NCBI RefSeq assembly: GCF_026151205.1
Contig: NC_087082.1
Span: 19,618,494 to 19,682,493 of the forward strand
Length of the DNA: 64,000 nucleotides
Source: Bolinopsis microptera
Lineage: Eukaryota > Ctenophora > Tentaculata > Lobata > Bolinopsidae
Direction of reading: 5' to 3'
The notes below the pieces were generated by a model. That model worked only from the letters and a program-made list of their open reading frames with translations, was not told the DNA's origin and made no database searches. The position numbers were made by a program, and so were the translations under genes. Positions 21,225 to 58,700 of the stretch are shown here, one piece after another. Every line of letters starts with the position of its first letter. The stretch's first letter is position 1.

Positions 21225-21690
21225 CAGAACATTTTCCCTTGTCTACGGAATAAATCATAAATTTAGCAGAAAGATCACTACTTTAGTAGCATCACCACAA
21301 CTTATAGATAATGTCCCTCTCCGGATATTACACAAAGACTAAACATTTCAAAAATGCGGTTACACAAATTTACAAATCATGGCCGACCTCCGTATAATAT
21401 GTACTTGAGCTGATATCAATTAGAGATGGTGAATGTTCAGTGGGATCTAGGTAAACTATAGGTAAAAATATAATATTAATCATAAGCTAAAATGTACTAA
21501 TCTTTGTATTCTAAATGGGGAAAAAGAAGAAACATTGTCAGTCAGTCGAGAAAATTGTCAGTCAGGCTATATGGCACACTCCAGCTGTTTGCAATTAAAC
21601 TGGCAGTGCTAAACCGGTTATTAGCAGGTTACTAACAGGCTATTATCAATCAATTAGTTACAACTAATATCCATTAGATGATCAACAGAG
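21225..21690. other. No gene seen
   Basis: Unique AT-rich spacer between two satellite arrays. No coding exon is supported. Confidence 0.6.
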
Positions 21691-23190
21691 AAGTACTCAA
21701 CTGTAAAGTTTATGAAGGAGCAAACATTGTCTAAGAGAACTACTCAACTGTAAAGTGACTGTAAACCTCTGTCTAACATTGTCTAAGAGAACTACTCAAC
21801 TGTAAAGTGACTGTAAACCTCTGTCTAACATTGTCTAAGAGAACTACTCAACTGTAAAGTGACTGTAAACCTCTGTCTAACATTGTCTAAGAGAACTACT
21901 CAACTGTAAAGTGACTGTAAACCTCTAACATCGTCTAAGAGAACTACTCAACTGTAAAGTGACTGTAAACCTCTGTCTAACATTGTCTAAGAGAACTACT
22001 CAACTGTAAAATGACTGTAAACCTCTGTCTAACATTGTCTAAGAGAACTACTCAACTGTAAAGTGACTGTAAACCTCTGTCTAACATTGTCTAAGAGAAC
22101 TACTCAACTGTAAAGTGACTGTAAACCTCTGTCTAACATTGTCTAAGAGAACTACTCAACTGTAAAGTGACTGTAAACCTCTGTCTAACATTGTCTAAGA
22201 GAACTACTCAACTGTAAAGTGACTGTAAACCTCTGTCTAACATTGTCTAAGAGAACTACTCAACTGTAAAGTGACTGTAAACCTCTGTCTAACATTGTCT
22301 AAGAGAACTACTCAACTGTAAAGTGACTGTAAACCTCTGTCTAACATTGTCTAAGAGAACTACTCAACTGTAAAGTGACTGTAAACCTCTGTCTAACATT
22401 GTCTAAGAGAACTACTCAACTGTAAAGTGACTGTAAACCTCTGTCTAACATTGTCTAAGAGAACTACTCAACTATAAAGTGACTGTAAACCTCTGTCTAA
22501 CATTGTCTAAGAGAACTACTCAACTGTAAAATGACTGTAAACCTCTGTCTAACATTGTCTAAGAGAACTACTCAACTGTAAAATGACTGTAAACCTCTGT
22601 CTAACATTGTCTAAGAGAACTACTCAACTGTAAAGTGACTGTAAACCTCTGTCTAACATTGTCTAAGAGAACTACTCAACTGTAAAGTGACTGTAAACCT
22701 CTGTCTAACATTGTCTAAGAGAACTACTCAACTGTATAAAGTGACTGTAAACCTCTGTCTAACATTGTCTAAGAGAACTACTCAACTGTAAAGTGACTGT
22801 AAACCTCTGTCTAACATTGTCTAAGAGAACTACTCAACTGTAAAGTGACTGTAAACCTCTGTCTAACATTGTTTAAGAGAACTACTCAACTGTAAAGTGA
22901 CTGTAAACCTCTGTCTAACATTGTCTAAGAGAACTACTCAACTGTAAAGTGACTGTAAACCTCTGTCTAACATTGTCTAAGAGAACTACTCAACTATAAA
23001 GTGACTGTAAACCTCTGTCTAACATTGTCTAAGAGAACTACTCAACTGTAAAGTGACTGTAAACCTCTGTCTAACATTGTCTAAGAGAACTACTCAACTG
23101 TAAAGTGACTGTAAACCTCTGTCTAACATTGTCTAAGAGAACTACTCAACTGTAAAGTGACTGTAAACCTCTGTCTAACATTGTCTAAGA
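21691..23190. repeat. 52-bp tandem array (about 28 copies)
   Basis: Unit TAAGAGAACTACTCAACTGT + AAAGTGACTGTAAACCTCTG + TCTAACATTGTC, highly uniform. One copy is shortened near 21.92 kb and one has a TA insertion near 22.73 kb. Confidence 0.97.
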
Positions 23191-34085: not shown

Positions 34086-34640
34086 ACCATCGTTCTGGAG
34101 ACAGTACTCTGGTTTCATGGTGTTAGAAGGCACACACCTAACAACACTTTAACAACACCCTAACAACACCCTAACAACACCCTAACAACACCCTAACAAT
34201 ACTTACCATCGTTCTGGAAACAGTACTCCGGTTTCATGGTGTTAGAAGGCACACCCCTGACAACACCCTAACAACACCCCTGACAACACCCTAACAACAC
34301 CCTAACAACACCCTAACAACACCCTAACAACACTTACCATCGTTCTGGAGACAGTACTCTGGTTTCATGGTGTTAGAAGGCACACACCTAACAACACCTT
34401 AACAACACCCTAACAACACCCTGACAACACCCTAACAACACCCTAACAATACTTACCATCGTTCTGGAAACAGTACTCCGGTTTCATGGTGTTAGAAGGC
34501 ACACCCCTGACAACACCCTAACAACACCCCTGACAACACCCTAACAACACCCTAACAACACCCTAACAACACCCTAACAACACTTACCATCGTTCTGGAG
34601 ACAGTACTCCGGTTTCATGGTGTTAGAAGGCACACCCCTG
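34086..34640 (-). repeat. Tandem copies of the exon 16 3' end and its splice donor
   Basis: On the minus strand the last ~45 nt of exon 16 (GGTGTGCCTTCTAACACCAT through CCAGAACGATG) recurs with starts at 34086, 34205, 34336 and 34455, plus the real exon end at 34586. Spacings are 119, 131, 119 and 131, so the true period is a 250-bp dimer. Copies are separated by (GTTGTTAGGGT)n. Four of the five keep the donor GATG|GTAAGT. The outermost copy (34086) instead reads GATGGTTACC and stays open for about 22 more codons. Confidence 0.92.
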
Positions 34641-34713
34641 CTCTTCATGAGGGAGGCAAAGTGAGACAGCCTTTCTTCCGCTTCCTCCCAGGATCCTACC
34701 TCACCCGCCTTAC
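34588..34713 (-). CDS. Hexosaminidase exon 16
   Basis: Acceptor ATCTCAG, donor GTAAGT; residues 582-624, AEERLSHFASLMKSRGV and MKPEYCLQND, matching the C-terminal helix and the final GYC-like motif. The 3' end is tandemly repeated downstream. A final short exon, or read-through of the outermost copy, must supply the stop. Confidence 0.92.
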
Positions 34714-37700
34714 CTGAGATTTTTGCATACGTTATACACTTGTATATTTTTTGTGCACTGAAAATACTGGGATATCAGATTTGTTTATCGACTGATTAAC
34801 TATCAAGGTATTGGTTTGCAGTATTCTAATTTAAGAAGACCTCCTCAATATGTCCCACCTTTAGCAGGGTTACTCCAGAGTCTCTCAGCATAGGCCCAGG
34901 TTCTAGGGAACACCTTGTAAAGGTTCTTCGTTAAAAACTATTAATTATCAATATTATTTCAGAATATGAGTATGACGTAGAAATGTCGATACGTTATTCA
35001 GCTATTTATTTCCATTAGAATCTGTTTTCACTGAGTTAAAAAAACAATCAGAAATTTGAATGAAAGAACCACCTTGTAAAGAATATCACTGTCCGAGGTT
35101 TGTTCTGTCCACATGGCCGTCTCTCCTCCTAGGATCCTGGTTAGATATTATCTACATCAGGTTCATTAAACAAGTTTGAGAATATATTTTCGAACAATTG
35201 TGAAAATGGGTATTTTCGTCGGTTCAAGTTCAGGTGGAAACTGGAATGGGCATATTTTTTTGTACAGCGCTAAATTAGTGAGATGACTGACAGGACAAAG
35301 TTGAGGAACCGAAGCTATGTTTCCTGTACAGTTAACCCAGACACTGAAATAACAATTCTTTACTTACAGTTCCTTAGCTTTAACCTCAGTTATATCCACT
35401 CCTTGTTCTTTAATCCACTCTCTGGTATCACTCATGTAAACTTGGTGCCAAGACTTGAAGGGGGAGCACCAGTTATTAGGCCCTGTAACAGAAACATTAG
35501 GGAGGGGGACAGGTACTGTAACAGAAACATCAGGGAGGGGGAGGGGGACAGGTACTGTAACAGAAACATAAGGGAGGGAGGGAGAGGGAACAGGTACTGT
35601 TACATAAACATCAGGGAGGGGGAGGGGGACAGGTACTGTAACAGAAACATCAGGGAGGGGGGACAGGTACTGTAACAGAAACATCAGGGAGGGGGAGGGG
35701 GACAGGTACTGTAACAGAAACATCAGGGAGGGGGAGGGGGACAGGTACTGTAATAGAAACATCAGGGAGGGGGAGGGGGACAGGTACTGTAACATAAACA
35801 TCAGGGAGGGGGAGGGGGACAGGTACTGTAACAGAAACATCAGGGAGGGGAGGGACAGGTACTGTAACAGAAACATCAGGGAGGGGGGAGGGGGGACAGG
35901 TACTGTAACAGAAACATCAGGGAGGGGGGGGGGACAGGTACTGTAACAGAAACATCAGGGAGGGGGAGGGGGACAGGTACTGTAACAGAAACATCAGGGA
36001 GGGGGGGGGGGACAGGTACTGTAACAGAAACATCAGGGAGGGGGAGGGGGACAGGTACTGTAACAGAAACATCAGGGAGGGGGGGGGGACAGGTACTGTA
36101 ACAGAAACATCAGGGAGGGGGAGGGGGACAGGTACTGTAACAGAAACATCAGGGAGGGGGTGGGGACAGGTACTGTAACAGAAACATCAGAGAGGGGGAG
36201 TGGGACAGGTACTGTAACAGAAACATCAGGGAGGGGGAGGGGGACAGGTACTGTAACAGAAACATCAGGGAGGGGGAGGGGGGCAGGTACTGTAACAGAA
36301 ACATCAGGGAGGGGGAGTGGGACAGGTACTGTAACAGAAACATCAGGGAGGGGGAGGGGGACAGGTACTGTAACAGAAACATCAGGGAGGGGGAGGGGGG
36401 ACAGGTACTGCAATAGAAGCATAAGGGAGGGGGGGGGGACAGGTACTGTAACAGAAACATCAGGGAGGGGGGGGGGGGACAGGTACTGTAACAGAATCAT
36501 CAGGGAGGGGGAGGGGGACAGGTACTGTAACAGAAACATCAGGGAGGGGGAGGGGGACAGGTACTGTAACAGAAACATCAGGGAGGGGGGGACAGGTACT
36601 GTAACAGAAACATCAGGGAGGGGGGGGGGGGGGCAGGTACTGTAACAGAAACATCAGGAAGGGGGACAGGTACTGTAACAGAAACATCAGGGAGGGGGAC
36701 AGGTACTGTAACAGAAACATCAGGGAGGGGAGGGGGACAGGTACTGTAACAGAAACATCAGGGAGGGGGAGGGGGACAGGTACTGTAACAGAAACATCAG
36801 GGAGGGGGAGGGGGACAGGTACTGTAACAGAAACATCAGGGAGGGGGGGGGGGACAGGTACTGTAACAGAAACATCAGGGAGGGGGGGGGGGGGTGACAG
36901 GTACTGTAACAGAAACATCAGGGAGGAGGGGGACAGGTACTGTAACAGATACATCAGGGAGGGGGAGGGGGACCCGGGACAGGTACTGTAACAGAAACAT
37001 CAGGGAGGGGGGGGGGGGACAGGTAATGTAACATAAACATCTGGGAGGGGGGGGGGGACAGGTACTGTAACAGAAACATCAGGGAGGGGGACAGGTACTG
37101 TAACAGAAACATCAGGGAGGGGGAGGGGGACCCGGGACAGGTACGTAACAGAAACATCAGGGAGGGGGAGGGGGACAGGTACTGTAACAGAAACATCAGG
37201 GAGGGGGGACAGGTACTGTAACAGAAACATCAGGGAGGGGGAGGGGGACAGGTACTGTAACAGAAACATCAGGGAGGGGGGGGGGACAGGTACTGTAACA
37301 GAAACATCAGGGAGGGGGAGGGGGACAGGTACTTTAACAGAAACATCAGGGAGGGGGGGGGGGACAGGTACTGTAACAGAAACATCAGGGAGGGGGGGGG
37401 GGGGGGTGACAGGTACTGTAACAGAAACATCAGGGAGGAGGGGGACAGGTACTGTAACAGAAACATCAGGGAGGGGGAGGGGGACCCGGGACAGGTACTG
37501 TAACAGAAACATCAGGGAGGGGGGGGGGGGACAGGTAATGTAACATAAGCATCTGGGAGGGGGGGGGACAGGTACTGTAACAGAAACATCAGGGAGGGGG
37601 ACAGGTACTGTAACAGAAACATCAGGGAGGGGGAGGGGGACCCGGGACAGGTACTGTAACAGAAACATCAGGGAGGGGGAGGGGGACAGGTACTGTAACA

Positions 37701-40700
37701 GAAACATCAGGGAGGGGGGGGGGACAGGTACTGTAACAGAAACATCAGGGAGGGGGGAGGGGGGACAGGTACTGTAACAGAAACATCAGGGAGGGGGGAC
37801 AGGTACTGTAACAGAAACATCAGGGAGGGGGAGGGGGACAGGTACTGTAACAGAAACATCAGGGAGGGGGAGGGGGACAGGTACTGTAACAGAAACATCA
37901 GGGAGGGGGGGGGACAGGTACTGTAACAGAAACATCAGGGAGGGGGAGGGGGACAGGTACTGTAACAGAAACATCAGGGAGGGGGGGGGACAGGTACTGT
38001 AACAGAAACATCAGGAAGGGGGACAGGTACTGTAACAGAAACATCAGGGAGGGGGGGGACAGGTACTGTAACAGAAACATCAGGGAGGGGGGGGGGACAG
38101 GTACTGTAACAGAAACATCAGGGAGGGGGAGGGGGGACAGGTACTGTAACAGAAACATCAGGGAGGGGGACAGGTACTGCAACAGAAACACTTATGTTTA
38201 TTTACGGTTATCATGATAGTTTCCTTTTTTAAGCTTATAATATAAAGTTTCTTAAGCTTATAAAGTTATAACATGAACGAACATTAAGATAAGAATATCA
38301 ACCAACTGCTAACTTTAGATTTGTTTGGAGAGGCGAATCATACACAGTTTAGGCTCTTGAAATCTTCGAAATAAAAATCATCTTGAGAGAACCTCCTCAA
38401 ATTATTTGTTATATGGTAGTGTTGAAAGTATTAAAATTGCTAAGTTAAGATTTACCTGCGCCCACCCAGGCCCCGAAACCACAGTCTAGGTAAAGTTCGT
38501 TGTGGTTGCTCATTATCACCCTGTACCCCTTCTCCAGCATGTTCTTTAGCTGCAGGGGAGTGTTTGTTGTACATCTAGTCAGTGGCGTAACGTTGCCTGT
38601 TGGCGCCCCCCTGCCGAAAAAAACCGCCCCCCCTGTTGGCGCCCCCTCCCCTTTTGGTGCCCCTCCCTAAAATTGAACAAATTAGGTGATTTTAAAGAAT
38701 ACGCCGGTAAAATCACTAAAAAAGTGTGTATCTAGAGCTAAACGCGCAGTTTTGCTAGTACTTTAGTTAAGTTTTCGAAATTGTCCCACATTCAAACGAC
38801 GATTTGGCGCCCCCCTAAGACGGCGCCCCTCTGCACAGCGGGGTCAGCAGGGCCTTTCGTTACGCCACTGCATCTAGTTAAGAATAGTTACTTATCACTG
38901 TCGAGTGTCGCTATAGCAATCAGCTTTAATAATCCAGTTACAAACCAAGACCTGAGCTGTGTCACGTGACCCTGGTTGCCATGGTAACTAACCTGTGTCA
39001 CGTGTCCTTCTGTGTCATCCTCCGTGCTCCCCCAGAACTGTATAACATAGTTCTCCTTGTTAAGGAGCAATATCTCCTCACCTTAGGGAGCAAATAGTTA
39101 TTTGCAAGAACTAACTGTGCAGTATTTTATTATTAAAATGAAATGAAAAACTCAAGTCTGCACCAAATCCGCAAAACCCTGTCAAAAATCTCATCTTACA
39201 GCAAGGCCTTGCAGCAAGGTCTATCATCTTGCAGCAAGGTCTATCATCTTGCAGCAAGGTCTATCATCTTGCAGCAAGGTCTATCATCTTACAGCAAGGC
39301 CTTGCAGCAAGGTCTATCATCTTGCAGCAAGGTCTATCATCTTACAGCAAGGCCTTGCAGCAAGGCCTTGCAGCAAGGTCTATCATCTTGCAGCAAGGTC
39401 TATCATCTTGCAGCAAGGTCTTGCAGCAAGGTCTATCATCTTGCAGCAAGGTCTATCATCTTGCAGCAAGGTCTATCATCTTGCAGCAAGGCCTTGCAGC
39501 AAGGTCTATCATCTTGCAGCAAGGCCTTGCAGCAAGGTCTACCATCTTGCAGCAAGGTCTATCATCTTACAGCAAGGCCTTGCAGCAAGGCCTATCATCT
39601 TGCAGCAAGGCCTTGCAGCAAGGTCTATCATCTTGCAGCAAGGTCTATCATCTTACAGCAAGGCCTTGCAGCAAGGCCTATCATCTTGCAGCAAGGCCTT
39701 GCAGCAAGGTCTATCATCTTGCAGCAAGGTCTATCATCTTGCAGCAAGGCCTTGCAGCAAGGTCTATCATCTTGCAGCAAGGCCTTGCAGCAAGGTCTTG
39801 CAGCAAGGTCTATCATCTTGCAGCAAGGCCTTGTAGCAAGGTCTATCATCTTGCAGCAAGGCCTTGCAGCAAGGTCTATCATCTTGCAGCAAAGCCTTGC
39901 AGCAAGGTCTATCATCTTGCAGCAAGGCCTTGCAGCAAGGTCTTGCAGCAAGGTCTATCATCTTGCAGCAAGGCCTTGCAGCAAGGTCTATCATCTTGCA
40001 GCAAGGCCTTGCAGCAAGGTCTATCATCTTGCAGCAAGGTCTATTATCTTGCAGCAAGGCCTTGCAGCAAGGCCTTGCAGCAAGGTCTATCATCTTGCAG
40101 CAAGGTCTATCATCTTGCAGCAAGGTCTATCATCTTGCAGCAAGGCCTTGCAGCAAGGTCTATCATCTTGCAGCAAGGTCTTGCAGCAAGGTCTTGCAGC
40201 AAGGTCTATCATCTTGCAGCAAGGTCTTGCAGCAAGGCCTATCATATTGCAGCAAGGCCTTGCAGCAAGGTCTTGCAGCAAGGTCTATCATCATGCAGCA
40301 AGGCCTTGCAGCAAGGCCTATCATCTTGCAGCAAGGCCTTGCAGCAAGGTCTATCATCTTGCAGGAAGGTCTATCATCTTGCAGTAAGGCCTTGCAGCAA
40401 GGTCTTGCAGGAAGGTCTATCATCTTGCAGCAAGGTCTATCATCTTGCAGCAAGGCCTTGCAGCAAGGTCTTGCAGCAAGGTCTACCATCTTGCAGCAAG
40501 GCCTTGCAGCAAGGCCTTGCAGGAAGCTCTATCATCTTGCAGCAAGGCCTTGAAGCAAGGCCTATCATCTTGCAGCAAGGCCTTGCAGCAAGGTCTATCA
40601 TCTTGCAGCAAGGTCTATCATCTTGCAGCAAGGCCTTGCAGCAAGGTATATCATCTTGCAGCAAGGTCTTGCAGCAAGGTCTATCATCTTGCAGCAAGGT

Positions 40701-43700
40701 CTTGCAGCAAGGTCTTGCAGCATGGTCTATCATCATGCAGCAAGGCCTTGCAGCAAGGCCTATCATCTTGCAGCAAGGCCTTGCAGCAAGGTCTATCATC
40801 TTGCAGGAAGGTCTATCATCTTGCAGCAAGGCCTTGCAGCAAGGTCTTGCAGGAAGGTCTATCATCTTGCAGCAAGGTCTATCATCTTGCAGCAAGGCCT
40901 TGCAGCAAGGTCTTGCAGCAAGGTCTATCATCTTGCAGCAAGGTCTACCATCTTGCAGCAAGGCCTTGCAGCAAGGCCTTGCAGCAAGGTCTATCATCTT
41001 GTAGGAAGGTCTATCATCTTGCAGCAAGGCCTTGCAGCAAGGTCTTGCAGGAAGGTCTATCATCTTGCAGCAAGGTCTATAATCTTGCAGCAAGGCCTTG
41101 CAGCAAGGTCTTGCAGCAAGGTCTATCATCTTGCAGCAAGGTCTACCATCTTGCAGCAAGGCCTTGCAGGAAGGTCTATCATCTTGCAGCAAGGCCTTGA
41201 AGCAAGGCCTATCATCTTGCAGCAAGGCCTTGCAGCAAGGTCTATCATCTTGAAGCAAGGTCTTGCAGCAAGGCCTATCATCTTGCAGCAAGGTCTTGTA
41301 GCAAGGTCTATCATCTTGCAGCAAGGTCTTGCAGCAAGGCCTTGCAGCAAGGCCTATCATCTTGCAGCAAGGCCTTGCAGCAAGGTCTTGCAGCAAGGTC
41401 TATCATCTTGCAGTAAGGCCTTGCAGCAAGGCCTATCATCTTGCAGCAAGGCCTTGCAGCAAGGTCTATCATCTTGCAGCAAGGCCTTGCAGCAAGGTCT
41501 TGCAGCAAGGTCTTTCATCTTGCAGCAAGGCCTATCATCTTGCAGCAAGGTCTTGCAGCAAGGTCTATCATCTTGCAGCAAGGTCTATCATCTTGCAGCA
41601 AGGTCTATCATCTTGCAGCAAGGTCTATCATCTTGCAGCAAGGCCTTGTAGCAAGGTCTATCATCTTGCAGCAAGGCCTTGCAGCAAGGTCTATCATCTT
41701 ACAGCAAGGCCTTGCAGCAAGGCCTATCATCTTGCAGCAAGGCCTTGCAGCAAGGTCTATCATCTTGCAGCAAGGTCTATCATCTTGCAGCAAGGCCTTG
41801 CAGCAAGGTCTATCATCTTGCAGCAAGGCCTTGCAGCAAGGTCTTGCAGCAAGGTCTATCATCTTGCAGCAAGGCCTTGTAGCAAGGTCTATCATCTTGC
41901 AGCAAGGCCTTGCAGCAAGGTCTATCATCTTGCAGCAAAGCCTTGCAGCAAGGTCTATCATCTTGCAGCAAGGCCTTGCAGCAAGGTCTATCATCTTGCA
42001 GCAAGGCCTTGCAGCAAGGTCTTGCAGCAAGGTCTATCATCTTGCAGCAAGGCCTTGCAGCAAGGTCTATCATCTTGCAGCAAGGCCTTGCAGCAAGGTC
42101 TATCATCTTGCAGCAAGGTCTATTATCTTGCAGCAAGGCCTTGCAGCAAGGCCTTGCAGCAAGGTCTATCATCTTGCAGCAAGGTCTATCATCTTGCAGC
42201 AAGGTCTATCATCTTGCAGCAAGGCCTTGCAGCAAGGTCTATCATCTTGCAGCAAGGTCTTGCAGCAAGGTCTTGCAGCAAGGTCTATCATCTTGCAGCA
42301 AGGTCTTGCAGCAAGGCCTATCATATTGCAGCAAGGCCTTGCAGCAAGGTCTTGCAGCAAGGTCTATCATCATGCAGCAAGGCCTTGCAGCAAGGTCTAT
42401 CATCTTGCAGCAAGGTCTATCATCTTGCAGGAAGGTCTATCATCTTGCAGTAAGGCCTTGCAGCAAGGTCTTGCAGGAAGGTCTATCATCTTGCAGCAAG
42501 GTCTATCATCTTGCAGCAAGGCCTTGCAGCAAGGTCTTGCAGCAAGGTCTACCATCTTGCAGCAAGGCCTTGCAGCAAGGCCTTGCAGGAAGCTCTATCA
42601 TCTTGCAGCAAGGCCTTGAAGCAAGGCCTATCATCTTGCAGCAAGGCCTTGCAGCAAGGTCTATCATCTTGCAGCAAGGTCTATCATCTTGCAGCAAGGC
42701 CTTGCAGCAAGGTCTATCATCTTGCAGCAAGGTCTTGCAGCAAGGTCTATCATCTTGCAGCAAGGTCTTGCAGCAAGGCCTATCATATTGCAGCAAGGCC
42801 TTGCAGCAAGGTCTTGCAGCATGGTCTATCATCATGCAGCAAGGCCTTGCAGCAAGGCCTATCATCTTGCAGCAAGGCCTTGCAGCAAGGTCTATCATCT
42901 TGCAGGAAGGTCTATCATCTTGCAGCAAGGTCTATCATCTTGCAGCAAGGTCTTGCAGCAAGGTCTATCATCTTGCAGCAAGGTCTACCATCTTGCAGCA
43001 AGGCCTTGCAGCAAGGCCTTGCAGCAAGGTCTATAATCTTCCAGCAAGGCCTTGCAGCAAGGTCTTGCAGCAAGGTCTATCATCTTGCAGCAAGGTCTAC
43101 CATCTTGCAGCAAGGCCTTGCAGGAAGGTCTATCATCTTGCAGCAAGGCCTTGAAGCAAGGCCTATCATCTTGCAGCAAGGCCTTGCAGCAAGGTCTATC
43201 ATCTTGAAGCAAGGTCTTGCAGCAAGGCCTATCATCTTGCAGCAAGGTCTTGTAGCAAGGTCTATCATCTTGCAGCAAGGTCTTGCAGCAAGGCCTTGCA
43301 GCAAGGCCTATCATCTTGCAGCAAGGCCTTGCAGCAAGGTCTTGCAGCAAGGTCTATCATCTTGCAGTAAGGCCTTGCAGCAAGGCCTATCATCTTGCAG
43401 CAAGGCCTTGCAGCAAGGTCTATCATCTTGCAGCAAGGCCTTGCAGCAAGGTCTTGCAGCAAGGTCTTTCATCTTGCAGCAAGGCCTATCATCTTGCAGC
43501 AAGGTCTTGCAGCAAGGTCTATCATCTTGCAGCAAGGTCTATCATCTTGCAGCAAGGTCTATCATCTTGCAGCAAGGTCTATCATCTTGCAGCAAGGCCT
43601 TGTAGCAAGGTCTATCATCTTGCAGCAAGGCCTTGCAGCAAGGTCTATCATCTTACAGCAAGGCCTTGCAGCAAGGCCTATCATCTTGCAGCAAGGCCTT

Positions 43701-46700
43701 GCAGCAAGGTCTATCATCTTGCAGCAAGGTCTATCATCTTGCAGCAAGGCCTTGCAGCAAGGTCTATCATCTTGCAGCAAGGCCTTGCAGCAAGGTCTTG
43801 CAGCAAGGTCTATCATCTTGCAGCAAGGCCTTGTAGCAAGGTCTATCATCTTGCAGCAAGGCCTTGCAGCAAGGTCTATCATCTTGCAGCAAAGCCTTGC
43901 AGCAAGGTCTATCATCTTGCAGCAAGGCCTTGCAGCAAGGTCTATCATCTTGCAGCAAGGCCTTGCAGCAAGGTCTATCATCTTGCAGCAAGGCCTTGCA
44001 GCAAGGTCTATCATCTTGCAGCAAGGTCTATTATCTTGCAGCAAGGCCTTGCAGCAAGGCCTTGCAGCAAGGCCTTGCAGCAAGGTCTATCATCTTGCAG
44101 CAAGGTCTATCATCTTGCAGCAAGGTCTATCATCTTGCAGCAAGGCCTTGCAGCAAGGTCTATCATCTTGCAGCAAGGTCTTGCAGCAAGGTCTTGCAGC
44201 AAGGTCTATCATCTTGCAGCAAGGTCTTGCAGCAAGGCCTATCATATTGCAGCAAGGCCTTGCAGCAAGGTCTTGCAGCAAGGTCTATCATCATGCAGCA
44301 AGGCCTTGCAGCAAGGTCTATCATCTTGCAGCAAGGTCTATCATCTTGCAGGAAGGTCTATCATCTTGCAGTAAGGCCTTGCAGCAAGGTCTTGCAGGAA
44401 GGTCTATCATCTTGCAGCAAGGTCTATCATCTTGCAGCAAGGCCTTGCAGCAAGGTCTTGCAGCAAGGTCTACCATCTTGCAGCAAGGCCTTGCAGCAAG
44501 GCCTTGCAGCAAGGCCTTGCAGCAAGGTCTATCATCTTGCAGCAAGGTCTATCATCTTGCAGCAAGGTCTATCATCTTGCAGCAAGGCCTTGCAGCAAGG
44601 TCTATCATCTTGCAGCAAGGTCTTGCAGCAAGGTCTTGCAGCAAGGTCTATCATCTTGCAGCAAGGTCTTGCAGCAAGGCCTATCATATTGCAGCAAGGC
44701 CTTGCAGCAAGGTCTTGCAGCAAGGTCTATCATCATGCAGCAAGGCCTTGCAGCAAGGTCTATCATCTTGCAGCAAGGTCTATCATCTTGCAGGAAGGTC
44801 TATCATCTTGCAGTAAGGCCTTGCAGCAAGGTCTTGCAGGAAGGTCTATCATCTTGCAGCAAGGTCTATCATCTTGCAGCAAGGCCTTGCAGCAAGGTCT
44901 TGCAGCAAGGTCTACCATCTTGCAGCAAGGCCTTGCAGCAAGGCCTTGCAGGAAGCTCTATCATCTTGCAGCAAGGCCTTGAAGCAAGGCCTATCATCTT
45001 GCAGCAAGGCCTTGCAGCAAGGTCTATCATCTTGCAGCAAGGTCTATCATCTTGCAGCAAGGCCTTGCAGCAAGGTCTATCATCTTGCAGCAAGGTCTTG
45101 CAGCAAGGTCTATCATCTTGCAGCAAGGTCTTGCAGCAAGGCCTATCATATTGCAGCAAGGCCTTGCAGCAAGGTCTTGCAGCATGGTCTATCATCATGC
45201 AGCAAGGCCTTGCAGCAAGGCCTATCATCTTGCAGCAAGGCCTTGCAGCAAGGTCTATCATCTTGCAGGAAGGTCTATCATCTTGCAGCAAGGTCTATCA
45301 TCTTGCAGCAAGGCCTTGCAGCAAGGTCTTGCAGCAAGGTCTATCATCTTGCAGCAAGGTCTACCATCTTGCAGCAAGGCCTTGCAGCAAGGCCTTGCAG
45401 CAAGGTCTATCATCTTGTAGGAAGGTCTATCATCTTGCAGCAAGGCCTTGCAGCAAGGTCTTGCAGGAAGGTCTATCATCTTGCAGCAAGGTCTATCATC
45501 TTGCAGCAAGGCCTTGCAGCAAGGTCTTGCAGCAAGGTCTATCATCTTGCAGCAAGGTCTACCATCTTGCAGCAAGGCCTTGCAGGAAGGTCTATCATCT
45601 TGCAGCAAGGCCTTGAAGCAAGGCCTATCATCTTGCAGCAAGGCCTTGCAGCAAGGTCTATCATCTTGAAGCAAGGTCTTGCAGCAAGGCCTATCATCTT
45701 GCAGCAAGGTCTTGTAGCAAGGTCTATCATCTTGCAGCAAGGTCTTGCAGCAAGGCCTTGCAGCAAGGCCTATCATCTTGCAGCAAGGCCTTGCAGCAAG
45801 GTCTTGCAGCAAGGTCTATCATCTTGCAGTAAGGCCTTGCAGCAAGGCCTATCATCTTGCAGCAAGGCCTTGCAGCAAGGTCTATCATCTTGCAGCAAGG
45901 CCTTGCAGCAAGGTCTTGCAGCAAGGTCTTTCATCTTGCAGCAAGGCCTATCATCTTGCAGCAAGGTCTTGCAGCAAGGTCTATCATCTTGCAGCAAGGT
46001 CTATCATCTTGCAGCAAGGTCTATCATCTTGCAGCAAGGCCTTGTAGCAAGGTCTATCATCTTGCAGCAAGGCCTTGCAGCAAGGTCTATCATCTTGCAG
46101 CAAGGCCTTGTAGCAAGGTCTATCATCTTGCAGCAAGGTCTTTCATCTTGCAGCAACTTCTATAAAGAGCACGAGAAATACTTGAGCTAAGTACCTGTTG
46201 TCATGCGACTTGACCAGAGGATAGCTTTAGGTTTGTCTTCGGATGTTACTTCTTTTAGCTGCTCGTACGCTCTCTGTTGGTAGTAATCCCACAGCTTCAT
46301 AAAACCTCCTACATCACTACTCCACCTGTTGTTGTATTGCTGGCCAAATAGCTTTACAAATAGTCGTTAACGTTCATTTTAGACAGTAATTGTATTTGTC
46401 CATTGTTAATAGGACTATAGCCCGGGCCCCCGGCGTGCGCTACTTCGTAGCACTTGCATCGGGCTAATATTTCGAGAAGAAACTAGCGGCGCGCGCTACT
46501 TCGAATAAATTTATACGAGTAACATCCGTCAACCCAAATACCACATTGGGTATAGGACACAAGGGCGGAAGACGCGTGGGCGGAGGTCGCGTAGGCGGAA
46601 GACTTGAGGGCGGAGGACGCAAGGGCGGAAGTTTCCTAAAAGGTTGGACACGAGGGCGGAGGTCGCGAGCGCGGAGGTCGATCCCAAGATTTGGGCGGAA

Positions 46701-49700
46701 GACTCGTAAAACGATCACATGTCCTAAATTCTCGACTGGTAATACTACAAAACCGGAAACATCACACAACGTACTTCAAATTGTATAAATTATATAAGTT
46801 ATATTCAATCAAAGTTATATTCAATCATTTTAGTGGTACTGATTTCGAATTCTTTGTAACTTTACAAACAAAATACACAGGGTTATACTTATAGAGAACG
46901 CTTAACGGTAATATAAATCACAATGTAATCAATCAATTTTGTCAAACCCGAATAGAATAATATCACAATAACATAAACATTTCACATAGCACAACATCAT
47001 CCTCGTACGAATGGTAGTTCTGAACTATGCTGAAGATTCTTCTATCCTTGTCGCTATTGGCCTTCCTCCTCTTAGGCTGCTGCTCTCCAAGCGAATTCGC
47101 TAAGGTCTTCTTGTCTGTCGAGGACTGTTCCATCTGGACTAGGAGATTCTGACGTTGTGACTCAAGTTGTTCGTTTCACTGTGCAATCTTTTCGTGTGAA
47201 AACTGTTGATCATATCCCAGAAGCCCTTGTGTCATGTGAGTCAAACTATCGAATCGAGTCACGTGATACATAACTTCGACTCACGTCATGAATCACCATG
47301 GTCATGATCTCATATAACACAACGGTATGTGAGGACATCACAACATCACGTAAACTGATCTGGGATATGATCAACTGTTTTCACACGAAGAGATTGCACA
47401 GTGAAACGAACAACTTGAGTCACAACGTAGACGACTCGAGAGACAACTAGTATATTTAAGACCGATGTTGGGAATAGAAGTATCTTATTAGAAGCCCTTG
47501 TGTCATGTGAGTCAAACTATCGAATCGAGTCACGTGATACATAACTTCGACTCACGTCATGAATCACCATGGTCATGATCTCATATAACACAACGGTATG
47601 TGAGGACATCACAACATCACGTAAACTGATCTGGGATATGATCAACTGTTTTCACACGAAGAGATTGCACAGTGAAACGAACAACTTGAGTCACAACGTA
47701 GACGACTCGAGAGACAACTAGTATATTTAAGACCGATGTTGGGAATAGAAGTATCTTATTATTTAGTTCCAGCTACATCTCAACTACTACAATAACAACC
47801 ATGTACGATGAAGATACAGTAAAGATTATCAGAGGAAGGACTCCTACCAGTCAGAATCTCCTACACGGTGGTTTCCGCTACTCTAAGGATGGAAAGCTTA
47901 CCACCGATGGACGCCAAGCCTGGAGATGTGTGAGGAAGAAAGACTGTTGCCGTGGTCGTCTGTATACCCTGAACGAATCCTTGGTGAAAGTGACACAGAT
48001 ACATAACCACGACGCTGATATCGCTGACTGTGAATTGAAAGAAGTCCTCGCTAAAGTCCAGGATCTGGCTGCTACGACGATGACTACTAACCACAACATC
48101 GGCGCCCTCAAAAACCTTGGTTCCTTTTCTCCAGACCGAATCATGGTGGACCTTGAGCTCGCCCTGAGGAACGCCCTATCGTCTACATTCGAGTCAGCCC
48201 AAGTGGATGGGTGCTTCTTTCATATCTGCCAGGCTGTCATGAGAGCTGTCGGGAGGCTTGGATACAAGGAGGAGTATGAAAAAGTCCTGACAGATCCCTC
48301 ATCTGGCCAGAAGAACTACACCCCTACACGAATCTGGATACGGAGACTGATGCTCCTAGCCTTCATCCCCACCGAGGACGTCATCGAAGCGTATTTCAGA
48401 ATCCTGGATGAGATACCGATAGGCCTCGCCATTGACGATCTCCTGGCATACTTCCAGACCACTTGGATCCAGGGACTAACGACTGCCTCCGGCACCGGAC
48501 GAGCTAAATTCCCTCCGTCCACGTGGAATGCCTATGAACGCAGCCACTTCAACATGAACCGGAGAAACAACGTGGTGGAGTCCTGGAACAAGAAGTTCTC
48601 TGCTCTAGTCGGACACGCAAACCCGACCATCTACAATTTCATTGCAGCAGTCCAGATGGAACAGTCCTCGACAGACAAGAAGATCTTAGCGAATTCGCTT
48701 GGAGAGCAGCCGCCTAAGAGGAAGAAGGCCAACAGCGACAAGGATAGAAGAATCCTCAGCATAGTTCAGAACTACCATTCGTACGAGGATGATATTTTAA
48801 CCTATATTGATTTGCTAAAGAGTGCTATGTGAAATGTTTATGTTATTGCATGATATTATTCTATTCGGGTTTTGACAAAATTGATTGATTACATTGTGAT
48901 TTATATTACCTTTAAGCGTTCTCTATAACCCTGTGTATTTTGTTTTTAAAGTTACAAAGAATTCGAAATCAGTACCACTAAAATGATTGAATATAACTTA
49001 TATAATTTATACAATTTGAAGTACGTTGTGTGATGTTTCAGGTTTTGTAGTATTACCAGTCGAGCATTTAGGACATGTGATCGTTTTACGAGACTTCCGC
49101 CCAAATCATGGGATCGACCTCCGCCCTCGCGACCTCCGCCCTCGTGTCCAACCTTTTAGGAAACTTCCGCCCTTGCGTCCTCCGCCCTCAAGTCTTCCGC
49201 CTACGCGACCTCCGCCCACGCGTCTTCCGCCCTCCTGACTGGTTCCCACCACATTTATTTTAAGCGACGTTCGACCTAGTATAGGTTATGTTGACTTCTG
49301 TTTAATCTCGCTCATTTAGCTTACCCTTTGGACTCCATAAAGTTAGTGATAGATGTCTCAGATTTCCAGCAATCAAAATTAACTTCGTCTCCTCCCATGT
49401 GCAACCATTCGCTTGGGAACGAGTCTTTAAGGTCTTGGTATATATCCTGGAATGATAGTTGGAGGTAAAGAACTGCTTTCTTTAATGAGGAAGAAATCTG
49501 CGAGTGTGATAAGCACCCTTAAACTCTTTAACAGTTTCCAAAATCTCAGTCGCCTCAGACTCAGAGTTTCGTGTAAAAATGCCGAATTCAAATTCTAACG
49601 AAATAATAATTCTAACGAAAACGACCTTTAAAACAGGGTACAGCTCCTCGTTAGCAACATTCATCTGCCCACAGGGCGGCTCCAAACAATAGTCAGTCCA

Positions 49701-52700
49701 CAGTTCTTTACCAACACACACAACTAGATCACCTGGATATTGAGATTTCGATTGAAAACTAATTTATTTAATTAATTTCAACACTCTATGAAATATCTTA
49801 TTTTTAATAACAAAATAACTTTAGTCCCTGGGATAATCCTACATTTTCCCTCGCGGTATCCTTAACCTACCTTTCCCAGCAGCCTTGCCCCACTGCCATC
49901 CATATCCAGCATGTGCGGGGGCGTCTAGCTCTGGAATTATCCTGATACCCCGCTTCTGAAAACAGTACGTAAAAAACACGAAACTCTCCTCACTGTGATT
50001 TGGTCAAATCGTGTTATAGATTAGTATAATTGTTACCCAAGGTTTACCACTTAACGAGTATGTTAAAATAACAGATCAAAGGAAACACCTCAAACATTAA
50101 CCTTAGCATTGTCAATTGTAGGTTTATAACCTACCAAGACGCGCGCCGAGTTGGACTCGTTGCAAATTGACGGTCTATTTGGAATATTTAGAACAAGTAT
50201 TTTACGAGTAACACCCGCTAACCTTAGCATACGTGACAATATCCTTCACAATTTCAGGAGTGTAAGTTTTATCAGGAAGATACGCCCCGTACTCTGACAT
50301 CTTAGGGACTGTCTTACTGACAAAGGGGAAGCTGTGGCTGTCGGAGAGGTGCCAGTGCAGAGTGTTCATCTTAGCTGCTGCTAGACCGTCTACAATCTTC
50401 CTGAACACATTGCAATTAGACCATCTAGTATCTTCCTGAACACATTGCAATCTTAGCTGCTGCTAGACCGTCTAGAATCTTCCTGAACACATTGCAATTA
50501 GACCATCTAGTATCTTCCTGAACACATTGCAATCTTAGCTGCTGCTAGACCGTCTACAATCTTCCTGAACACATTGCAATTAGACCATCTAGTATCTTCC
50601 TGAACACATTGCAATCTTAGCTGCTGCTAGACTGTCTAGTATCTTCCTGAACACATTGCAATTAGACCATCTAGTATCTTCCTGAACACATTGCAATTAG
50701 ACCATCTAGTATCTTCCTGAACACATTGCAATTAGACCGTCTAGTATCTTCCTGAACACATTGCAATCTTAGCTGCTGCTAGACTGTCTAGTATCTTCCT
50801 GAACACATTGCAATTAGACCATCTAGTATCTTCCTGAACACATTGCAATCTTAGCTGCTGCTAGACCGTCTAGTATCTTCCTGAACACATTGCAATTAGA
50901 CCATCTAGAATCTTCCTGAACACATTGCAATTAGACCATCTAGTATCTTCCTGAACACATTGCAATCTTAGCTGCTGCTAGACCGTCTAGAATCTTCCTG
51001 AACACATTGCAATTAGACCATCTAGTATCTTCCTGAACACATTGCAATCTTAGCTGCTTCTAGACCGTCTACAATCTTCCTGAACACATTGCAATTAGAC
51101 CATCTAGTATCTTCCTGAACACATTGCAATCTTAGCTGCTGCTAGACTGTCTAGTATCTTCCTGAACACATTGCAATTAGACCATCTAGTATCTTCCTGA
51201 ACACATTGCAATTAGACCATCTAGTATCTTCCTGAACACATTGCAATTAGACCGTCTAGTATCTTCCTGAACACATTGCAATCTTAGCTGCTGCTAGACT
51301 GTCTAGTATCTTCCTGAACACATTGCAATTAGACCATCTAGTATCTTCCTGAACACATTGCAATCTTAGCTGCTGCTAGACCGTCTAGTATCTTCCTGAA
51401 CACATTGCAATTAGACCATCTAGAATCTTCCTGAACACATTGCAATTAGACCATCTAGTATCTTCCTGAACACATTGCAATCTTAGCTGCTGCTAGACTG
51501 TCTAGTATCTTCCTGAACACATTGCAATTAGACCATCTAGTATCTTCCTGAACACATTGCAATTAGACCGTCTAGTATCTTCCTGAACACATTGCAATCT
51601 TAGCTGCTGCTAGACTGTCTAGTATCTTCCTGAACACATTGCAATTAGACCGTCTAGAATCTTCCTGAACACATTGCAATTAGACCATCTAGTATCTTCC
51701 TGAACACATTGCAATCTTAGCTGCTGCTAGACTGTCTAGTATCTTCCTGAACACATTGCAATTAGACCATCTAGTATCTTCCTGAACACATTGCAATCTT
51801 AGCTGCTGCTAGACCGTCTAGAATCTTCCTGAACACATTGCAATTAGACCATCTAGTATCTTCCTGAACACATTGCAATTAGACCGTCTAGTATCTTCCT
51901 GAACACATTGCAATCTTAGCTGCTGCTAGACTGTCTAGTATCTTCCTGAACACATTGCAATTAGACCGTCTAGAATCTTCCTGAACACATTGCAATTAGA
52001 CCATCTAGTATCTTCCTGAACACATTGCAATCTTAGCTGCTGCTAGACCGTCTACAATCTTCCTGAACACATTGCAATTAGACCATCTAGTATCTTCCTG
52101 AACACATTGCAATCTTAGCTGCTGCTAGACCGTCTAGAATCTTCCTGAACACATTGCAATTAGACCATCTAGTATCTTCCTGAACACATTGCAATTAGAC
52201 CGTCTAGTATCTTCCTGAACACATTGCAATCTTAGCTGCTGCTAGACTGTCTAGTATCTTCCTGAACACATTGCAATTAGACCGTCTAGAATCTTCCTGA
52301 ACACATTGCAATTAGACCATCTAGTATCTTCCTGAACACATTGCAATCTTAGCTGCTGCTAGACCGTCTAGAATCTTCCTGAACACATTGCAATTAGACC
52401 ATCTAGTATCTTCCTGAACACATTGCAATTAGACCGTCTAGTATCTTCCTGAACACATTGCAATCTTAGCTGCTGCTAGACTGTCTAGTATCTTCCTGAA
52501 CACATTGCAATTAGACCGTCTAGAATCTTCCTGAACACATTGCAATTAGACCATCTAGTATCTTCCTGAACACATTGCAATCTTAGCTGCTGCTAGACTG
52601 TCTAATATCTTCCTGAACACATTGCAATTAGACCATCTAGTATCTTCCTGAACACATTGCAATCTTAGCTGCTGCTAGACCGTCTAGAATCTTCCTGAAC

Positions 52701-55700
52701 ACATTGTAATTAGACCATCTAGTATCTTCCTGAACACATTGCAATCTTAGCTGCTGCTAGACTGTCTAGTATCTTCCTGAACACATTGTAATTAGACCAT
52801 CTAGTATCTTCCTGAACACATTGCAATCTTAGCTGCTGCTAGACTGTCTAATATCTTCCTGAACACATTGCAATTAGACCATCTAGTATCTTCCTGAACA
52901 CATTGCAATCTTAGCTGCTGCTAGACCGTCTAGTATCTTCCTGAACACATTGCAATTAGACCGTCTAGTATCTTCCTGAACACATTGCAATCTTAGCTGC
53001 TGCTAGACTGTCTAGTATCTTCCTGAACACATTGCAATTAGACCATCTAGTATCTTCCTGAACACATTACAATCTTAGCTTCTGCTAGACTGTCTAATAT
53101 CTTCCTGAACACATTGCAATTAGACCATCTAGTATCTTCCTGAACGCATTGCAATCTTAGCTGCTGCTAGACCGTCTACAATCTTCCTGAACACATTGCA
53201 ATTAGACCATCTAGTATCTTCCTGAACACATTGCAATCTTAGCTGCTGCTAGACTGTCTAGTATCTTCCTGAACACATTGCAATTAGACCATCTAGTATC
53301 TTCCTGAACGCATTGCAATCTTAGCTGCTGCTAGACCATTAATGAACTTATTACTGTAGCTGCTGCTAGACCATCTACAATCTTCCTGAACACATTGCAA
53401 TTATCATCTTAGCTGCTGCTAGACCGTCTACAATCTTCCTGAACACATTGCAATCTTAGCTGCTGCTAGACCATCTAGAATCTTCCTGAACACATTGCAA
53501 TGAAAAACTTATTACTGTGCTATACTGATACTTAATGAAATAGTCATGTAAATTGTTTATAGAATACAGCAGATAGACATAATTCTCACATTAACTAGGT
53601 AGAGTAGACTCTCAGTATATGTAAAGTAAAGATTGATAACCTACTTGATAACAGGAGTTGAAATGTAGTTCCTGCTGGTATCAATTGAGAGACCACGCCA
53701 GGGATAATAAGGACTGTCCACTATCTTTATACTGTTAACTATGTAGGTCCTGTTGTCCACTGTGTCGGATAGAGCCAGCTGTGACAGTGTTACAACTCCA
53801 TGACGCGCTCCCTGGTGGACATGTCATTGGGAATCTCACCAGATCAACAAAACAAGATCAATTCTATTTCTGAATGAAAATTTCATCTAATTTGTTGCAC
53901 TGTTTTATACGTTTAATATTTTTACTAATAGTAGTTATACTTATATCAACAGCTAACAGCTTACAAAGTAAGAGGCAGCTTTGACTTTGGCGTTAACATT
54001 TCCTTGCTCGTCAGTAGAGATAGTAAGTTCGTAGCTCTCATCCGCTGTATCCGTGAAGTCAGTCAAAGTACCGTTCTCAACATCGAACGAGAAGTTTAGC
54101 TGTGGATATAACATTATGATTAACTAGGGTGTAGGGTTTGCTCAAATATTCAAGTGGTATTTTTTGGGATTTCCGAAATTAAAAACGCTCTCGTGTGGCC
54201 GAGTTAATCGATAATGTGTTGCCAATATTGAAATAAATAAGATAAGGTAGTTTAAATTTATTTTTGACAAACTTTAAATGTTAAAAGAGAGGACACTATT
54301 TTGTAACTTTTACCTCAACATCTGCATCAGAGTGGCTGTATTTTAATTTCAAATCTTCGACTAAATCGTCCAATTCTGATGCACCAACATTGTTTTGTGT
54401 ATTCCCATTATATCTTGAGAATATATGGATATTGAAACTGGAAGTTGATCACAAATTGGATATCGTTATGAAATTGAGAATTGTTCAGCTTCGTAATGAC
54501 TACGAATGTGCTAAATCACTCTACACTCGAACTTCAAGATCTTTCTGAAAGCCCCCCCCCCCCACGGGTGGGGGGGGGGCTACATTACTGATCAATCAGA
54601 CTTGTAAGATTTTACCGTTACTTATTTAGTTATTGCAGGCCTCTCATAGTCATATAGGGGGGGGGGGGGTGTCACGTCCGTCTATGTCCGCCTATGTCCT
54701 GTCCTTTTTGGATTCTATGAGACAACGGACGTGTTTTTTGGGACATTGGCGGACACGGACGGACATTGGCGGACACGGACGGACATTGGCGGACTCGGAC
54801 GGACATTGGCGGACTCGGACGGACATTGGCGGACTCGGACGGACATTTGCGGACCCGGACGGACATTGGCGGACTCGGACGGACATTGGTGGACATTAGC
54901 GGACATATAAGAGGTCTAAAGAATAAAGATCTCACAAATATCACAGTGCTGGCAAGCACGACCGTTGCATTTATTGTGGGTATACTATGTACCCCATTTA
55001 TTATTATACCCCCTTTACTATAATTATACCCCCTTTGGTACACGTTACAAGCTTCTTTCGTGCACGCGAAGCGTGCACTCCGGCCGGAGGCGGCGGCCGA
55101 AGGCCGCCGCCTCCGGCAGGAGTTTTTCAGGCATTAAGAAGTCGTTCAGCAGATTTATTTTTAGTTCAAAACATTCTGATTTGATGTCAAAGATGACAGG
55201 AATAAAAAATAGTTATGTTGAGATTTTTAAGAAATTTGCATAAAATACTCGCCAGCACTGTTATACGAAATTCGGTAAAAAACCCAAAATCGCCATATTC
55301 AGGTGCCTTAAAAACCATATTAAAATTGAGTTAGAGATCTGAAATTTTTCAGGGCGTCTAGACGTTGACCAAATCGACTGCAAAAAAGGTTTCAGGCTTC
55401 AGGAGCATCGGGAAGTGGGTTTTCTAGAACCCCTGTTTTACGACAGATTGTCGTGATACATATTCAGGGATAGACGCTTTGACAGTCAAATATAGTCAAT
55501 TGTATCCTAAATTTAGGTGTCCATAGATTCAAAAGTATAAAAGATACAGCCATTTCCGACCACAGGTCTTTAAAATAATTGTTTACACTTTAGTTTACAT
55601 TGTATAAAAAAATTATTTGACGTCATAAACACCCCTTGATGACGTCATCAAGGTAACCGTTTTTAAAACTTGATTTTCGACAAAGTAATAACTTCTAAAA

Positions 55701-58700
55701 TTGATTTAACACTATTTAAAAGTAATTTTTTTCAACATCTGAGGAAATTTTCATCTTAGATAATTGTTCAAGCATTCTGAAAATCTACCGGAAAGTTTTC
55801 TTATCTTACTCCTTCATAAAGATATTTGCCTTTGAAGTTAGTGCTTTTTTGAAAAATTATTTTTTTAAAACGTCAATTTTGCGATTTAGTATTCTCTGGT
55901 GTTGGGCTATCCCTTGGGTTGTGGAGCTCAGTTCTGCTTCCTATAGGTATAAATTGTGCATTAGGCTAGTTTTAAAGTTGAAAATCAAAAAGTTGCACAC
56001 GTGGGGACACGCCCAAATTGATTAAAAATTGCTAAAATCACTGAAAATTGGTGTTTTCACGATTTTTATCAACTTTGGAGTCCCGTTGTGATCCAAGTTC
56101 TATTTGAAATCTTTTGAAACTTTGCACGCTTATCAAACTATATATAAAATACCGCTATGCAAAAATTTACGGCGATTCAGTATTGGATGCGCACGTAACG
56201 TCCGCTCAAAGTTTGCACGTGCGAACGGTGAGAATTATGCTCATTCGTGATTTCGAACAAATTCTGCTTTACCACGACAGTTCAATGTCATTATAAATGA
56301 AGTTAATGGCAACTTGAATGATTATAATGTTTTATGTTCAGTCAGTGATAGACCGATATGCTTACTTAAACACAAGGAAATGTTTTTAAAGTAAAAATTT
56401 CGAAATCGTTGAAACTTCCTCCTTATTAATGAAGACATCAGTTTATATTTCGATTTTATAAAGTATCCTGATATGACATTATAATCAAAAAGAGATGATA
56501 TTTTACCAAAACCCATAATCATGGGTAGAGTGGACCGCTGCCAGTGTCTCTCTTTCCCAAACAAAAGGAAATGATATTAATTTGATTGACCGTTCTCAAA
56601 TGCAAAATGATACCGAGAATGAAATCGGTCGCTCGCTTTTTCCATTAATTTACAATTGTAATAGATTAAGAAGAACTACCCGAAGGCAGCTGTACTCAGC
56701 AATAAAGATTCAATAAACTTCAGCTAATTTACTAACTACCAGTACCACCCTTATCCCGAAATACTAGGTATATCGACCCGAACGCAACCCAAAGGAATTT
56801 GTACAGCATGTGATTGATTGTAAGCCGTGAATGAATACTAACTACCAGTACCACCCTTATCCCGAAATACTAGGTATATCGACCCGAACGCAACCCAAAG
56901 GAATTTTTACAGCATGTGATTGATTGTACTATTGTAAGCCGTGAATGAATGGGAAAAGCGAGCGACCGATTTCATTCTCGGTATCATTTTGCATTTGAGA
57001 ACGGTCAATCAAATTAATATCATTTCCTTTTGTTTGGGAAAGAGAGACACTGGCAGCGGTCCACTCTACCCATGATTATGGGTTTTGGTAAAATTCCCAA
57101 TATTTAATTAAATCCAGTCACCAAATCCGGTCGCTAAATCCAGATCTATAATTTGTGTCGTCAACATATCTTTGAAACAGTTACACAGGGTACACAGTAG
57201 GCACAGTACCTATTTAACGAAATATAGGGAATATAACTTATTAATCACACTAAAGCTATTAATAGCTTTAACTTATTTAATCAAATTATATAGGGACCCA
57301 GGAAAAGGCCCCAGGAGGAGGAGGAAGAGGACTGGGGAGGATCAGGAAGACCCAGGAGGAGGACCCAGGAGGAGGAGGAGGACTGAGGAGGACTGAGGAG
57401 GAGGACTGACGATGACTGAGAAGGAGGAGGACTGAGGAGTACTGAGGAGGATGGCTGAGGAGGATGGCTGAGGAGGATGAATGAGGAGGATGACTGAGAG
57501 GGAGGAGGAGGAGGACTCAGGAGGAGGACTCAGGAGGAAGAGGAGGAGGACTCAGGAGGAGGACTTAGGAGAAATGAGAAGGAGGACTGAGGAGAACTGA
57601 TGAGGAGGAGGAGGAGGAGGACTGAATAGGAGGAGGAGAAGGAGGGGGACTGGGAGAGGACTGAGGAGGAGGAGGACTGATGAGAAGGATGATGAGGAGG
57701 AGGATAAAGAGGAGGAGGAGCACCCAGGAGGAGGAGGACTGAGGAGGAGGACTGAGGAGGAGGACTGAGGAGGACTGAGGAGGATGGCTGAGGAGGATGA
57801 CTGAGAGGGAAGAGGAGGAGGAGGAGAAGAACTCTGGAGGAGGAGGAGGAGGACTGAGGAGGACTGAGGAGGACTGAGGAGGACTGAGGGGGACTGAGAA
57901 GGAGGAGGACTGAGGAGGAGAAGGAGGAGGAGAACTGAATAGGAGGAGGAGGAGGAGGGGGACTGGGGGAGGACTGAGGAGGACTGAGGAGGACTGAGGA
58001 CTGAGGAGGAAGAGGAGGAGGATGAAGAGGAGGAGGAGGACCCAGGAGGAGGACCCAGGAGGAGGACTCAGGAGGATTGATTGAGGAGCACTACCCAGAG
58101 GCATTACTCGGCACTAACGCCTTAAAATCTTTAATTACAATCAAATATAAATATATGCACACAATGTATAAAATATGAATAATGTATAAAATATGATTAC
58201 GCTATTAGCAAATTTGAATAGTACTACTATTAAGAATTTGTAAATAACTCTTATCTCTTGACATAAATTTAGAACAGCGACACAGGGTCTGAAGAATGCG
58301 CGGTGATATTTTTGTCTTGTAAATGACAGTGAAATTGCGCGGTAGCGATAGCATTGTAGAAAATGCTCGAAGATAGTCATATTTCGTTATGAGGTTAAAG
58401 TTTTGTTGCTCGTTATTATCAACGTACGTTGTATCAAATTATTTAAATTTCTAAAAGTACGAAATTTGAGTTTTTCCAGTCCTTGTCATCCGGGTTAAGT
58501 GCTTGTGCAGTAAGCACATGCTTGCTGACTGTAGACTTGAATGAATTTAGGAATTTGTCTTGTAGGCAAGTCGTGACATATTTTATGTCCTTGTTAATAA
58601 TGTTGACTGTTTTGTTATATAACTTAGGCCCAATGTAAGAAATGCTCTTGTCTGAATTACATAAACGGTTAAATGGTACTGCAAAGAACTCAGGTTCTCT

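Follow-up and report, generated by a model that had tools for sequence, protein, structure and literature searches.

A minisatellite that multiplies the acceptor of its own intron makes up the last 3.1 kb of intron 5 in a gene for a GH20 beta-hexosaminidase of the ctenophore Bolinopsis microptera, within a stretch of 64,000 nucleotides (contig NC_087082.1, positions 19,618,494 to 19,682,493) that we call the window and by whose numbering we give positions. The gene lies on the minus strand, and the array (50401..53501, minus strand) directly adjoins exon 6 (50400-50223), so that the true acceptor at 50400 is preceded by 76 decoy units of 35, 47, 53 or 82 nt, each with an acceptor ending in TTCAG and followed by the start of exon 6. 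Probably, the array is a very large mirage, that is, a minisatellite grown across a 3' splice site, most likely tolerated by the gene and not selected, and by analogy it can be seen as a very large case of a type of repeat already known from amphioxus.

The anatomy of the units carries this reading. Counting the true exon there are 77 acceptor-bearing units, namely 44 of 35 nt, 30 of 47 nt, one of 53 nt and one of 82 nt, and the 22-nt acceptor core, searched with up to 3 mismatches, has 77 matches in the window and none in 100 shuffled windows. Every unit of intron 5 holds both the intron end and the exon start, as in a mirage. The initial annotation had already described an amplification of the acceptor together with the beginning of exon 6, lying against the true acceptor, and the unit anatomy bears this out; its estimate of about 75 decoys came close to the exact count of 76, and the 35-bp unit is indeed a shortened 47-bp unit, lacking one block of 12 nt. 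It had gone too far, though, in taking the 47-bp unit for an exact copy of the exon start, since the exact exon 6 start of the window copy is found in only 3 of the 30 units of 47 nt (two of type n and one of type f). Across the first 19 exon bases, the variation between units is confined to positions 7, 8, 13 and 14, and altogether the window array comprises 16 distinct unit types arranged in an ordered pattern. The microhomology CTAAGAT, once proposed between exon 6 and the intron unit, has to be given up, given that the compared left flank (TTTTTCATTGCAATG), exon (CTAAGATGAAC) and unit joint (CTAAGATTGCAATG) have only AT in common.

The last acceptor of the series is the one that keeps the reading frame open. 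The 14 exons from 54437 to 34574 join as a single open frame ending with a stop; the spliced product covers positions 1-347 of the 348 of the GH20 catalytic model with 309 bits, and within its first 305 residues, which align with solved hexosaminidases, the exon 5/6 joint is crossed without a gap in both alignments shown. This exon set consists of exons a, b and 5-16, with the first exon or exons further upstream not located. Exon 5 ends in phase 2 (AA|G), and when it is joined to each decoy a premature stop follows in 76 of 76 cases, just as had been foreseen, after a somewhat longer run than the 12 or so sense codons first given: including the codon split by the joint, we count 15 codons for 44 decoys, 19 for 30, 18 for one and 21 for another. 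Among the 77 acceptors, only the last one leads into exon 6 with an open frame, and in a second copy of the gene 14 of the 15 sites lead to a premature stop and one is open. We considered these universal stops as a sign of selection and rejected this, because simulated 47-nt units produce stops by default, in 20,000 of 20,000 units with the intronic part shuffled and again in 20,000 of 20,000 random AT-rich units; the stops are therefore no evidence of design.

The second copy of the gene is placed 0.92 Mb away on the same contig and has 15 acceptors against the 77 of the window copy, so that the earlier suggestion of a variable array length proved correct as far as two copies of the gene are concerned. 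A probe of exons b-5 against the genome assembly (264.65 Mb in 232 contigs) found two places only, the window and this second copy. The first three units at the 5' edge (a-b-c) are common to both copies and the interior differs, which is like the turnover pattern of the amphioxus mirages. The core of unit 1 (53480..53501, minus strand) is the 5'-most acceptor and alone follows a TTTTTC intron flank, and thus it is probably the ancestral acceptor; if unit 1 is the original, the acceptor that makes the working protein would probably be a later copy situated 3.1 kb downstream. Over eight exons (1049 nt), the two gene copies differ by 15 synonymous and 15 non-synonymous changes, that is, a pairwise dN of 0.018, a dS of 0.070 and a ratio of 0.26, which averages over both lineages and is not proof of constraint on each copy taken by itself. 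At its start, exon 6 reads K-I-V-D in the window copy and K-I-L-D in the second one, and each equals a unit type in an array; this parallel between the V/L difference and the array units suggests an exchange between array and coding sequence. On the 3' side of the array in intron 10, the second copy gave no match in the 18 kb searched, and a genome probe across exons 13-16 had a single full-length match, the window itself, among the matches listed (40 of 360 candidates scored); the other 50 rows were partial matches, which fall either in a dispersed repeat or in the terminal array of the window itself. The DNA beside the second copy matched only sequence repeated in the genome, and for its other flank the best rows shown owed their match solely to a 59-nt array piece. 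Similar gene loci are also found 150-460 kb apart on single contigs (C12:8.28/8.61 Mb, C7:13.95/14.16 Mb, C11:11.96/12.12 Mb and C5:16.27/16.73 Mb), and, judged by model positions only, these pairs on C12, C7, C11 and C5 are either unmerged haplotypes or local duplications.

Acceptor arrays recur in the same gene and in a paralogue. Intron 12 (38455-35483) contains a second one (35500..38170, minus strand) of the TTTCTGTTACAG type, restricted to the intron side, with 68 matches at up to 2 mismatches, 66 of them decoys bearing an AG; the real site is not among them, and 5 of the 66 decoys are in frame to exon 13. A GH20 paralogue on contig C2, which was chosen because of its homology and without regard to repeats, has an array of its own in the intron homologous to intron 13, where 26 sites of TTTATCAG are each followed by the exon start, at spacings of 112 nt (18 times), 90 nt (4) and 134 nt (3), the units here also including both the intron end and the exon start. 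At its last site the frame stays open for the whole 150 nt tested; each of the remaining 25 runs into a stop after 15 codons, and over 556 nt one of these decoys matches the real site without a difference. Elsewhere in this paralogue (L010, C2:945093-945438), a second copy of a coding piece (GNNWCSPYK, about 30 nt) is so placed that removing 147 nt by splicing restores the exon exactly, which is likely an intron gained by tandem duplication. At C2:941280-941502 of the same locus, the coding piece VLWTSHM stands on both sides of a 21-bp array, with a 3.3-kb array of 12-bp units downstream.

Outside the GH20 genes, an array spanning a splice junction was found at none of 97 exons of 19 control loci, with 194 edges, drawn from model matches to the chaperonin, myosin, GH31, AMP-binding and glutamate-receptor families. 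The control edges were placed by the model matches, and hence lie only roughly at the true exon ends; the sample is small and partly paired, with two GH31 loci on C12 that coincide in their model positions, and the families sampled may be under stronger constraint. Two of the 194 edges (L022 and L026) looked positive at first and were discarded, their arrays ending 19 and 13 nt upstream of the acceptor without including the junction.

How the true site could be picked out among its copies is the central question raised by this gene. The stretch around decoy 35 (52030..52195, minus strand, with its first exon-like base at 52062) shows no difference from the real site over its 166 nt, from -133 to +33; across -25..+6, 30 of the 76 decoys are identical to the real site, and over the 20 nt upstream 41 of 76 are. 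Since the real site and decoy 35 do not differ over these 166 nt, the local sequence cannot choose between them and position must decide. From the last acceptor to the exon 6 donor there are 178 nt, and by the unit coordinates the use of decoys 76 to 73 would lengthen the exon to 213, 260, 295 and 342 nt, respectively. No donor of the form GTRAGT was found in the intron 5 array; among its GT hexamers, 227 are GTTCAG, GTGTTC, GTCTAA or GTCTAG and nine are of other types, eight of these beginning with GTA (six GTAGAY and two GTAATR). From these features we infer that the real site is found by exon definition, perhaps with some leak into the last few decoys, and one match to the Upf2 domain in the genome makes the decay of such leaked products plausible.

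The array may have arisen from a tandem duplication that covered the end of intron 5, with the branch region and the AG, plus the first 31-33 nt of exon 6, and unequal exchange would later have raised the acceptors to 77 in the window copy and to 15 in the second copy. At every step the 3'-most unit would restore an intact acceptor beside the full exon, and for this reason the growth of the array can be tolerated. The last site would be used by exon definition, lying at a normal exon length of 178 nt from the exon 6 donor, and the decoys would have only poor donor candidates close behind them. Any leak into the last few decoys would yield messages to be removed by nonsense-mediated decay (NMD) at little cost, so that the array would be nearly neutral to its host gene.

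Several points weigh against this reading. The use of the last acceptor is itself deduced from the sequence, and under a first-AG scanning mechanism the first unit, the sole keeper of the T-rich tract, might be preferred. The argument from donors is a weak one, given that GTCTAA or GTAGAC within the array might serve as donors, and the lack of GTRAGT there counts for less because only 1 of the 13 internal donors of the gene itself is GTRAGT, some of the others being as poor as GTCGTT or GTGGTT. The arrays are present in both GH20 paralogues yet at none of the control exons, which could hint at something peculiar to these genes. The second copy may be an unmerged haplotype or a partial duplicate, both being compatible with the data. 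The amphioxus repeats, according to part of the published account, could also yield aberrant transcripts (PMC3087553).

Of the other explanations, the one put forward in the initial annotation is that the decoys are kept as a poison region, with splicing to them followed by NMD setting the amount of enzyme and array length acting as the dial. The premature stops at all 76 window decoys and at 14 of the 15 second-copy sites, the 77 versus 15 sites of the two copies, the presence of the decay machinery suggested by the single Upf2-domain match, and the analogous array in a second GH20 gene would all fit with it. Against this, a stop is what either simulated control gives without exception, 5 of the 66 intron 12 decoys are in frame, and the amphioxus arrays reportedly leave the mRNA normal and are harmless to splicing, in the portions of those accounts that treat it (PMC3087553, PMC3902484). 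Moreover, although one copy has five times as many sites as the other, the dN/dS between them, averaged over both lineages, is 0.26. We therefore find the poison claim unsupported and consider it unlikely that the array works in this manner. Its broader form, in which selection would have made arrays of poison acceptors into a brake, tuned by length, on the hexosaminidase genes of this animal, draws on the fact that two GH20 paralogues each have an array in a different intron, comprising the acceptor and 31-35 nt of exon, with none at the 97 exons of other genes and with a length that differs between copies; we hold this to be very unlikely.

It can also be argued that early splicing factors are captured by the acceptors without any splicing there, so that intron 5 is retained or detained in the manner of human OGT. 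A long intron with many acceptor-like sites would suit such a role, decoy exons with this action are described in human genes (PMC12017769), and the weak GT sites of the array might act as donors in a gene whose own donors are often weak; the known decoys, however, are exons with both splice sites and the array has no GTRAGT donor, which leaves us regarding this role as quite improbable. If the window copy were instead a failing gene, spliced mostly to decoys while another GH20 gene supplies the enzyme, this would agree with the other GH20 genes on C2 and C11, with the T-rich tract retained by the first array unit and with the lack of a match to the last exons in the 18 kb searched of the second copy, but it is hard to reconcile with 14 exons open to the stop, a full catalytic domain and the pairwise dN/dS of 0.26 between the copies, and we doubt it. 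An array expanded or invented by the assembler might be suspected because one contig carries both copies with such unequal arrays, and because several pairs of similar loci are separated by 150-460 kb on the same contig, as could be expected of unmerged haplotypes; the ordered arrangement of 16 distinct unit types, the agreement of the second copy in its first three units, and a different array of the same plan in the C2 paralogue make an artefact highly improbable. A tolerated mirage is thus the reading that we prefer.

The remaining parts of the gene, all on the minus strand, are as follows. Upstream of the array are exon a (54314..54437), exon b (53965..54099) and exon 5 (53645..53811), whose donor is GTAGGT and which is followed by intron 5 from 53644 to 50401. 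Exon 6 (50223..50400) has the donor GTTAGC and precedes exon 7 (49871..49955), exon 8 (49626..49732), exon 9 (49325..49446), which contains the motif HMGGDEV, and exon 10 (46195..46325), where a suspected frame break was dismissed because an acceptor just before 46325 closes the frame. Further on are exon 11 (38993..39081), exon 12 (38456..38549), exon 13 (35368..35482, with its true acceptor at 35482), exon 14 (35073..35136), exon 15 (34859..34913) and exon 16 (34574..34713), which ends in CLQNDGKCC and the stop within the first copy of a terminal array. This terminal array (34086..34640, minus strand), probably 3' untranslated, repeats the last coding piece several times, most copies being followed by GATGGTAAGT, a donor-like site. 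Intron 10 holds a 7-kb array of CTTGCTGCAAG-type units (39191..46142, minus strand), in which no copy of a splice junction was seen; its counterpart in the second copy has 4.6 kb (C11:20578136-20582698), and it is there that the homology of the second copy stops. Transposon remnants lie within and upstream of the gene, at 47702-48832 and 58443-59693, with matches to a FLYWCH zinc finger and, under the curated cut-off, to MULE, and also to a reverse transcriptase.

Arrays are found elsewhere in the window as well. At 1-7288 there are 155 copies of a 47-bp unit with 99% matches and an acceptor-like CTCTCTACTTCTCAG on the reverse strand of the unit, and no gene was recognised around it when the reading frames were looked over by eye only; at 16588-21225 and 21723-23190, arrays of 54-bp and 52-bp units (86 and 28 copies) also have acceptor-like motifs on the reverse strand. 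One glutamate receptor encoded in the genome has its best match among solved structures in those of Mnemiopsis ML032222a. Two further observations concern other loci: at C3:9154012-9154485 (L024), the exon for myosin-head model positions of about 102-167 is present twice in a row with some 50 nt between, possibly as alternative exons, and at C2:21.80-21.90 Mb, C11:7.43 Mb and the glutamate-receptor loci there are long intronless open frames covering whole domains, which are possibly retrocopies.

This gene offers a natural test of how the spliceosome chooses an acceptor where the local sequence gives no information, given that only wider position, for instance the distance to the exon 6 donor, can distinguish the real site from decoy 35. 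If the gene is spliced correctly, this argues for exon definition in a ctenophore, and if exon definition picks the site, it is the last few decoys that should matter and not the length of the array. Minisatellites that span an intron-exon boundary are hereby extended beyond amphioxus and can reach dozens of units, and by exchange with the coding sequence such arrays perhaps rewrite the start of an exon.

In 1995 a functional gene, presumably IFI6/6-16, was reportedly described in which a splice site is multiplied by a minisatellite; there it is donor sites, not acceptors, that are concerned. For ctenophores, no case of a boundary-spanning minisatellite was among the matches listed in the literature searched, most subscription papers being outside its scope. 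In human segmentally duplicated genes, internal tandem repeats at exon-intron boundaries, with units of 30 bp on average repeated four times, have been described (PMC2812944), and they resemble our array in that minisatellites at exon-intron boundaries alter the introns of recent paralogues, and differ from it in being novel introns with transcript evidence. The human decoy exons, such as that of OGT, have been shown by experiment to cause intron retention or detention (PMC12017769); as presented in the relevant part of that work, these decoy or poison exons have in common with the array that splicing to an intronic site leads to a premature stop, and, unlike it, they are whole exons with both splice sites.

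The closest relatives of the array are the mirages of amphioxus, minisatellite-like duplications of intron-exon boundaries found in the globin genes BflGb6 and BflGb9 and in Adh3 (PMC3087553), with PGBD5 and troponin C as further cases (PMC3902484). As far as the available part of these reports goes, BflGb6 has haplotypes with mirages of 6 and 3 units, the edges of the cluster are spared homogenisation (PMC3087553), and the data suggest that splicing is undisturbed (PMC3087553, PMC3902484). Three of these features recur in Bolinopsis, namely units that span the boundary, a difference in copy number (77 versus 15) and edge units spared from homogenisation, and the fourth, normal splicing of the mRNA, would have indirect support in the open frame and the dN/dS. 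In summary, and within what those accounts cover, the ctenophore array is like the amphioxus mirages in its boundary-spanning tandem units, many of them with AG/GT signals, in its variable copy number and in its edges that escape homogenisation, and it is unlike them in its 77 acceptors, in its occurrence in a ctenophore, and in the presence of two acceptor arrays in one gene with a third in a paralogue.

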